The position numbers and the translations under genes were made by a program. Of a DNA stretch of 64,000 nt, positions 60,452 to 63,400 are shown in pieces; positions within the stretch are counted from its first letter, which is position 1, and the number at the start of each line of letters is the position of its first letter. The notes under the pieces are model-generated. The model saw only the letters and a program-made list of their open reading frames with translations, ran no database searches and was not told where the DNA came from. The stretch comes from Lepidurus packardi (lineage: Eukaryota; Arthropoda; Branchiopoda; Notostraca; Triopsidae): positions 8,184,001-8,248,000 of the forward strand of contig JAKZAN010000004.1 in the NCBI GenBank assembly GCA_023053545.1, in the 5' to 3' direction.

Positions 60452-63400
60452 TTAATAATAAGTTTCTTCTTCCAACCAGCCGCCTGGATTTCTGCGGATT
60501 TGCCATTTGCGGATTTCGTCATACACGAAGATCAGCAAAGCAAAGGGCATAGGAGGACCCCACCAGTTGATCCTAAGAAGAATATAAAATAGAATAAATT
60601 GTATTAATAAAACCAAACTAGAGGTATATTTTAAACATTAAGAGGTGTAACTTACTTGAGTGGGTACATGCGTAAACCTTTGTCCAAGCCTGGGGTATAG
60701 CAAAGTGTGATTGCTACTAGCGTTTCGAAAACCAGCGCAAAATTCAACACGTGATTCCTACAGAAATAAAAAAAAAGTTCAGAATTAGTGAAAATTTAAG
60801 GTTACAGTCATCTGATATCCTTACGTTAAACCTTGTTGGAACAAAGACAACCGTCGAGTTTTGCAGATGATGACATCGGCCCATTGCACAATAACGATAG
60901 CTACGAAAAAGGCACTGTGACAAGTGAACTCCAATTGTTTTCGGGCATCGTAGGTCTAGACAGACTAGTTTTTAATGCGAGTTCCTTAAACAAAAAGCCT
61001 CAATATCGGCTAACTAACCCATTCTTGGCCATACGAATCCTGTAAATCGTTGATGGCTCTGGAATCCCAGAACTTCCGAATGCCGAAGAGCTTAGCAGGC
61101 AGAAAACCGTTTTCGCCCATGATGACAAAATATACGAAAAAGCCTCCTCCCGCTTGCATTGCACCAATCTGAGCAAACGCCATACCCAGCAACCTATCAA
61201 CCAAGTGGGTACAAATTCATTACATAGAATTCAAAGATATAAGGAAAATATGAGCTTACTTGGCGCCGACTAGTTTATCCGTAAAAGGATCTCGAGGGGG
61301 CCTTTTCATAATATCTGATTCAGATTGTTCGTATGCCAAAGCAATAGCGGGTACCTAAATAAAGGAGAATTATGAATGTAAAAAATCAGATGGTGGAAAT
61401 CGACGCCATAACATTGAGAAGAAGAAGGAGAATGGCTTACCATGTCAGTTCCCAAGTCGATGCAAAGAATAGTAACTGTGCCCAAAGCTAAGGGGATATC
61501 TGCTAAGATGAAGAGCAAAAACGGCATGACCTCAGGTACTTTGGATGTCATAGTATAAGCAATGGACTTTTTCAAGTTATCGAAAATCAAACGTCCCTCT
61601 TCCACGCCAGTAACAATGGAAGCGAAATTGTCGTCCAGCAAAATCATATCAGCTGCTTGTTTGGAGACGTCCGAGCCAGAAATACCCATAGCCACACCTT
61701 AATCACATAGAAAGAAATCCATATAAAATTGCGTTTCAATGTAAACTCTTACGAGATTACCGATATCGGCCTTCTTTAAAGCTGGAGAATCATTTACACC
61801 ATCACCAGTGACGGCCACAATAGCTCCCATTCGTTGGAATCCTTCCACGATAAACAGTTTTTGCTGAGGTGAAGTACGTGCAAACACGATTTCCTTGTAC
61901 ATCCTGTAATCCAAATCAAATGAATTAAAAAACATAAAGAATTAAAGCTAATTAAGAGAACCGGACCTTAAAATTTCATCGAGTTGATCTGTACTCATTT
62001 CTTTCAATTCCTGTCCATGGACCACAGCAGCTTGGGCGTCCGAAGGGTGAACTTGAGATACGGGTATATTTAAGCGAGTAGCGATATCTTCGACAGTTTC
62101 ACTTCCTTCGGAAATGATGCCCACAGATTGGGCGATAGCTTTGGCAGTAATGGGATGGTCACCAGTAACCATTACAACTTTGATGCCAGCAGATCGACAC
62201 ATTGCTACCGCACCTGGTACAGCCGCACGAGGAGGATCAATCATGGACATGAGGCCGACAAACCGCAATCCACTTAAAGGAAAGTTGGGGTTATCGGCGT
62301 CAAACTTGTAGTTCTGTGGGAATGAATCGTGTGGCAAAAGATATTCGCAGAAACCTAAATAAAACACCAATTTATTACAACACTATTTCCAGTGAGAGTG
62401 GAAAGAAATGTAGCAATGTACCTAAAACTCTTTCTCCTCGGCTACCCAAATCCATATACGCTGCGTTGAAAGATTCTCGCTGTTCTTCATCCAAAGGCTT
62501 TTCTTCGCCATTGATCAAAATGCTGGTACAGGCTTCCAAAATCCTTTCGGGTGCTCCTTTCATGACCAATAGGAATCGAGGATCTTTGGTATCTTCTGTC
62601 TCGTGAATCGAAACCTATTAGCCAAACCATTATAATTGCAATAATGCAACAGAACAGTGACTCAGTGACACATAATTTTGTTATGAAAATATGTAATAAT
62701 GACCTGATATTTGTTGGATGAATTGAAGGGAATTTCCGTAATCTTCCTATTCTTCTGTCGCACTAAAGTAGTATCTTTCTGAATAGATTCCACACATTTC
62801 AAAATAGCACTCTCTGAAGCATCTCCATTGACATCCCTAAATGAGCGGAGTACAAAAAAATCGTATAAAAAGCTGACAATCAGAACAACGTGGGATTACC
62901 GTTTCATAACAGGTAATTGTTCTTGACCATTTTTAAACTCGGCTCGAGAGCATAAGGTTGCTGCTCGCGACAAAGCTTTCCAACCAGGCCTATTCTTGTC
63001 AAAGTAATCCCCGCTTTGATTTTCGGTGGTATCGACATTAACAATGGAGTCATCAAACCACATATGGGCTACAGTCATGCGATTCTGGGTTAGCGTGCCG
63101 GTTTTGTCTGAGCAGATGGTCGAAGTAGACCCGAGCGTTTCGACGGCTTCTAAATTTTTAACTAAGCAATTCTTCTTGGCCATTCGCTTAGCGGTCAGGG
63201 TAAGACATACGGTGACGGTAGCCAGCAAACCTTCGGGTACGTATGCCACGATGATACCAATTAGAAAGATTACCGCATCAAGCCAGTGGTAACCCAAGAT
63301 GAAGGCAATGACGAATAGACTACCGCCCATTGCAAAAGCAATAGCAGTGATGACGTGAATGAAATGGCTAATTTCTTTGCTAATAGGAGTTTCACCCGAT

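Follow-up and report, generated by a model that had tools for sequence, protein, structure and literature searches.

The window analyzed here, a 64,000-nucleotide stretch of Lepidurus packardi DNA, carries on its minus strand a Na+/K+-ATPase alpha gene (gene D) that encodes tyrosine in M4 and lysine in M5 at two ion-site positions, N324 and N776 in pig numbering, that are asparagines in canonical alpha subunits. Throughout, residue numbers (pig) and the roles of residues in the cation sites follow established knowledge. A second gene of the same genome (gene C) encodes the same pair. In our leading reading, which we hold at about even confidence, gene D would be a working alpha paralog that belongs with gene C and the Artemia alpha2KK pump to a branchiopod class marked by the M5 lysine, cycling at approximately 2Na:1K with Tyr324 as the partner of K776. 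The two replacements had been noticed in a first-pass annotation of the window, and the codons it gave were found exactly so: GTG GCA TAC GTA CCC GAA with TAC at 63243-63241, and ACA TCC AAA GTA CCT GAG with AAA at 61542-61540, both on the minus strand. The interval it assigned to the feature, 61540..63243, contains both sites but falls short of the gene, which is larger (64869 to 60452).

Seventeen coding exons of gene D were found on the minus strand of contig C3, from 64869, outside the window, to the stop codon at 60452 (all coordinates of this gene are on the scale of the window). Each of the 16 junctions between these exons is GT-AG, and once joined they read without interruption to a terminal EETYY and stop. 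The start-codon exon was not found at the locus, and the count of 17 covers the exons that were. Four coding exons lie outside the window (64869-64786, 64591-64475, 64354-64235 and 64173-64090) and the M2 exon crosses its edge (64026-63913, with 63913..64000 inside), in each instance with GT-AG junctions. Within the window these are followed by the A-domain exon with TGES (63550..63802) and by the exon with M3, M4 and DKTGTL (62900..63479), in which the TAC codon for Tyr at N324 occupies 63241..63243 (VAYVPE). The N domain is encoded by exons at 62704..62836 and 62422..62614, the latter with KGAPER, and the P domain by exons at 61967..62354 and 61761..61903. The exon with M5 and M6 (61441..61697; TSKVPE and DLGTDM) contains the AAA codon for Lys at N776 (61540..61542). 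The remaining exons encode the M6-M7 linker (61260..61354), M7 with SYGQ (61019..61193), a contact for the beta subunit according to section 9 of PMC3793950, M8 with Q923 and D926 kept (60825..60955), M9 with E954 kept (60656..60757) and M10 with the C-terminal EETYY and stop (60452..60572). An AATAAA just past the stop codon, read by eye on the minus strand (60431..60436), is a possible polyadenylation signal. Open frames for C2H2 zinc fingers on the plus strand at 58095-59340 converge on gene D and, by eye, seem to us to resemble metal-response factor (MTF-1). Upstream of gene D on the same strand of contig C3, at about 66980-66650 on the window scale, a frame was read by eye as nucleoside diphosphate kinase.

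Gene D scored 1794 bits against TIGR01106 (curated cut-off, 946.1), which places it among P-type IIC ATPase alpha subunits and agrees with its initial identification as a Na+/K+-ATPase alpha; all four alpha paralogs of the genome matched this model at E <= 0.001. The catalytic motifs of P-type IIC alpha subunits were present in the motif scan and in the joined exons, as had been claimed from the letters. Gene D has Ser at pig S775, as in Na+/K+-ATPase rather than H+/K+-ATPase. When it was compared to 36 solved chains, 19 Na+/K+ pump chains outscored the remaining 17, which we read as H+/K+ pumps though some are labelled Na+/K+.

Twenty-six ion-site positions were tabulated in 10 sequences to compare gene D with other pumps. 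Five of the 26 differ between gene D and bovine alpha1, namely 324 (Y), 773 (M), 776 (K), 777 (V) and 953 (F), and the Phe at 953 is common to the four paralogs, alpha2KK and three bacterial pumps. Residues E327, E779, D804, D808, Q923, D926 and E954 are kept, and for the glutamates of M4 and M5, the two aspartates of M6 and the Q and D of M8 the alignment shows what the first-pass annotation had read. A motif scan of the 9.5-kb locus revealed one M4 copy and one M5 copy, and no alternative exon giving back Asn was seen with patterns that would catch a canonical copy and can miss some diverged ones (the M5 of gene C was missed). A-to-I editing cannot convert AAA or TAC to an Asn codon.

The genome (108.6 Mb, 344 contigs) was searched with the M4 exon and the M5-M6 exons as queries, with match counts serving as lower bounds. 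At least four alpha genes have a main exon at least 75% identical to the query, and the exons found of all four are open frames. The other matches to the query exons did not exceed 49%, apart from short pieces (some 40 residues) at 53% and 65%. Genes A, B and C are arranged in tandem on contig C1, at about 6.656 to 6.678 Mb, and gene D is on contig C3. Genes A and B are canonical (VANVPE/TSNIPE; Asn/Asn from AAC and AAT), and the second, canonical alpha gene for which a check had been proposed is therefore present twice. In the case of gene C (C1:6674320-6678013; loci L011, L041 and L042), the motifs are VAYCPE and TSKIPE with TAC and AAG at pig 324 and 776, so that the Tyr/Lys pair occurs in two of the four alpha genes found. 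A tabulation of positions 324 and 776 had been proposed for the IIC ATPases of this genome and of other crustaceans; it was run for the four alpha genes of this genome, with two Tyr/Lys and two Asn/Asn as the outcome.

Genes C and D are 68% identical in protein sequence, with saturated synonymous sites and a dN of 0.26; for genes A and B, dN is 0.10. From this identity and the saturation it follows that the pair is old in the lineage or was gained twice. Gene C carries further changes, V325C in M4 and D926T in M8 (QWAT for QWAD), and thereby lacks D926, the aspartate of Na+ site III. One intron of gene A (C1, about 6660960-6662680) holds the M6-M7 linker exon in triplicate, without M4 or M5. 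These copies can be likened to the repeated exon 11 described for other arthropod alpha genes in the available text of PMC3793950, where six annotated alpha genes, three of them with consecutive accessions, are given for Daphnia pulex. The tandem genes A, B and C may correspond to those three accessions, which, along with a GH7 cellulase match described below, points to a branchiopod source.

Genes C and D likely share a common origin with alpha2KK. Solved-chain searches were performed with genes A, C and D as queries. The best chain for gene D was 8k1l, 'Na+,K+-ATPase alpha2KK' (1608.5 bits, next 1599.3), as it was for a 768-residue part of gene D (1284.6 versus 1265.1 bits) and for gene C (1456.2 versus 1450.1 bits), although for both genes its lead over vertebrate pumps is small. 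Canonical gene A instead matched the alpha3 chain 8d3u best (1771.7 bits), with 8k1l ranked 18th (1697.7 bits). According to the available text of PMC11172918, 8K1L is from Artemia salina, 8D3U is human and 4XE5 is bovine. The lysines that the first-pass annotation gave for both sites of Artemia alpha2KK are indeed read at 324 and 776 of 8k1l. Plain identity runs counter to the chain ranking: gene D shares 74% with genes A and B but 70% with 8k1l, which is itself 74% identical to gene A.

Relatives outside this genome were sought in viral and prokaryote genome contigs. None of the 71 pattern matches in the viral contigs was confirmed as a relative, and three of 100 in the prokaryote genome contigs were confirmed bacterial IIC pumps, all Asn/Asn, which were used as an outgroup. 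These bacterial pumps (Boseongicola and Aliiroseovarius; L043-L045) are 41-45% identical to the animal rows and have most of the cation ligands, with Ile at T772 and Val at W924.

Columns 324 and 776 were masked, and a 10-row tree was computed with a mixture model, first including the bacterial outgroup and again without the bacteria. Alpha2KK grouped with genes D and C at a support of 97/96 with the outgroup and 95/95 without it, and genes D and C grouped together at 98/96 and 98/97, respectively. Placement of gene D with alpha2KK apart from gene C had a p of 0.013 in the tree with the bacterial outgroup. With the M4-M6 and M8-M9 columns dropped, the support for alpha2KK with genes D and C was 78/80. 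The same lysine would also be seen if the Tyr/Lys pair arose in a duplication within this lineage alone and the two lysines of Artemia were acquired independently; the M5 lysine would then have been reached more than once, with a different M4 partner each time. We regard such convergence as unlikely, though it keeps appreciable weight. The grouping it predicts, genes A, B, C and D held together without alpha2KK, costs 13.1 log units with the outgroup and 10.4 without, and is only weakly rejected (p-AU 0.049 and 0.0775, respectively). When gene C was left out, the support for gene D with alpha2KK was 71/71 and gene D with genes A and B was unrejected (p-AU 0.308). Long-branch attraction among the lysine pumps is possible because genes C, alpha2KK and D have the three longest end branches of the animal rows (0.55, 0.31 and 0.21), which would favor convergence as well. 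However, the 97/96 support came from a mixture-model tree in which the two sites were masked, and when gene D was left out, gene C still grouped with alpha2KK (93/94) and its placement with genes A and B had a p of 0.038.

Shared derived residues along the whole protein also argue against convergence. They were counted in columns where bovine alpha1 and human alpha3 agree and where all animal rows are free of gaps. Eleven residues, K776 included, are confined to genes C, D and alpha2KK, as compared to at most two for any other triple, and they are spread along the protein, beyond the ion sites. Residues shared by pairs only numbered 11 for C and D, 10 for A and B, four for C and alpha2KK and three for D and alpha2KK. 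The intron positions compared are mixed, with one confined to D and C, two to D and B (three with one at an alignment gap) and one shared by A and B, and they were not counted toward either reading. The M5 lysine was probably inherited together with that of Artemia.

In a brine shrimp pump, lysines in M4 and M5 permit a cycle of 2 Na+ per 1 K+ (PMC10812997, available text), and the reduced stoichiometry that the first-pass annotation had given for this pump is in line with that report. In the proposed mechanism for gene D, the ammonium group of K776 would lie between E327, E779, D804 and D808 inside the cation cavity and take the place of one transported ion, so that the pump would move some 2 Na+ against 1 K+ per ATP rather than 3:2. 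At the site of the M4 helper lysine of Artemia, Tyr324 would hold or screen K776, through a hydrogen bond or a cation-pi contact, leaving the remaining K+ site with useful affinity. From the primary paper on the brine shrimp pump, the M5 lysine of 8k1l reportedly lies in the ion cavity, and the M4 lysine is said to be energetically coupled to it and to preserve K+ affinity. If this coupling is right, the gene D pump would keep the residue that sets stoichiometry, with Tyr replacing the residue that tunes it. Tyr may not do in gene D what the M4 Lys does in Artemia.

A lower stoichiometry would permit pumping against a steeper Na+ gradient. In brine this would serve salt excretion; in dilute water it could hold epithelial cytosolic Na+ far below 1 mM and aid uptake from the water, an idea that depends on the salinity of the habitat. 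With assumed values of 600 mV per ATP, 50 mM Na+ and 2.5 mM K+ outside, 100 mM K+ inside and -70 mV, the thermodynamic limit comes to 0.50 mM cell Na+ for 3:2, 0.008 mM for 2:1 and 0.012 mM for 2:2. Since 2:2 would also bring cell Na+ down this far, energetics do not speak for 2:1 in particular.

It is quite unlikely, in our estimate, that the gene D pump has altered affinity or a leak with the usual 3:2 coupling, or performs electroneutral 2:2 exchange. K776 might then face out of the cavity, and Tyr324 might mainly shift the affinity for K+ or Na+. Coupling in gene D is read from its sequence, and an M8 arginine, which like the lysine is a tethered cation, gives 2Na:2K (PMC10812997, available text), both of which leave room for such a pump. 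Conservation of the four carboxylates facing K776 speaks against it. So does the homologous lysine of 8k1l, which reportedly lies inside the ion cavity. It is very improbable that genes C and D encode non-transporting or barely active relatives with a signalling, adhesion or tissue-restricted role: two ion-site asparagines are gone, and D926 as well in gene C, but TGDGVND and the other catalytic motifs are unbroken in both genes, the carboxylate ligands are whole in gene D, and replacement changes are under strong constraint compared with silent ones. An assembly or base error is scarcely credible, since the diverged gene C has the same residues with a different Lys codon, which puts the pair beyond chance or base error.

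The pump encoded by gene D, read as a member of an M5-lysine class, can be compared to known systems. Like Artemia alpha2KK (8k1l), it has Lys at N776 and has lost the Asn at N324; both pumps keep the seven ligands from E327 to E954 named above, and they share the derived change of PLPLG to PLAxG and KTRRLS past M8. Unlike the Artemia pump, which has Lys in M4 and QWTD in M8, genes D and C have Tyr in M4 and gene D has QWAD; the two proteins are 70% identical, and gene D is known from its sequence. Canonical alpha subunits (human alpha3, bovine alpha1, and genes A and B) have the same architecture, catalytic motifs, carboxylate ligands and ETYY end as gene D, but are Asn/Asn where gene D is Tyr/Lys. 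The gastric H+,K+-ATPase has an M5 lysine near the cation sites. The H+,K+-ATPases (ATP4A and ATP12A) resemble gene D in this respect, but their lysine is at the neighboring position, where gene D has Ser, and gene D matched them at 1335 bits at best, compared to 1608 for the best Na+/K+ chain. In the non-gastric H+,K+-ATPase the lysine is at S777 in the numbering of PMC10812997 (available text), which we equate with pig S775. Barnacle and insect Nak2 (PMC3793950, available text) are similar to gene D in forming a fast-evolving second arthropod alpha class. In that text, K+-site residues are called conserved in 'the B. improvisus protein', apparently Nak1 and Nak2, and barnacle Nak2 is therefore probably not a Tyr/Lys pump.

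The first-pass annotation had called the pair a different solution. This holds insofar as Tyr/Lys is unlike the Lys/Lys of Artemia; it needs qualifying in that two old genes carry the pair and probably share their M5 lysine with Artemia by descent, so that the novelty lies mainly at M4. An abstract-level literature search of incomplete coverage, which is weak evidence of absence, found no description of a Tyr/Lys alpha subunit, and the available text of the Artemia genome paper does not mention the Na+/K+ pump. In the literature as available (PMC10812997 among the sources), the brine shrimp is the animal credited with a natural Na+/K+ pump that departs from 3:2, and the other cases are mutants. 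The relationships described here suggest that lysine-type pumps may predate the brine shrimp and have a wider distribution. Tentatively, and at somewhat less than even confidence, reduced-stoichiometry pumps could have arisen early in branchiopods, with the M5 lysine as their hallmark and a variable M4 partner, and have been used for ion uptake or gradient steepening before hypersaline life, the Artemia double lysine being derived. On this view gene C, which also lacks D926, would add a third kind of coupling to the animal, reduced still further.

A naturally occurring Tyr/Lys pump takes the two lysines apart, keeping the supposed ion-site filler and replacing the supposed tuner, and therefore offers a ready-made mutant-cycle experiment. 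If the class does span branchiopods, the view of a pump evolving for extreme salt would have to be revised, and freshwater Na+ uptake would acquire a candidate mechanism.

Three further observations were made in the genome searches. Matches to the beta subunit were confined to one region of contig C2, with four exon matches. Contigs C130, C141, C171 and C280, which are not among the large contigs, have P-type ATPase matches that are 35-49% identical to gene D, some in long open frames, and these are perhaps contaminants or symbionts. A GH7 cellulase locus is 72% identical (226/314 columns) to its best solved match, 4xnn, which presumably derives from Daphnia pulex.
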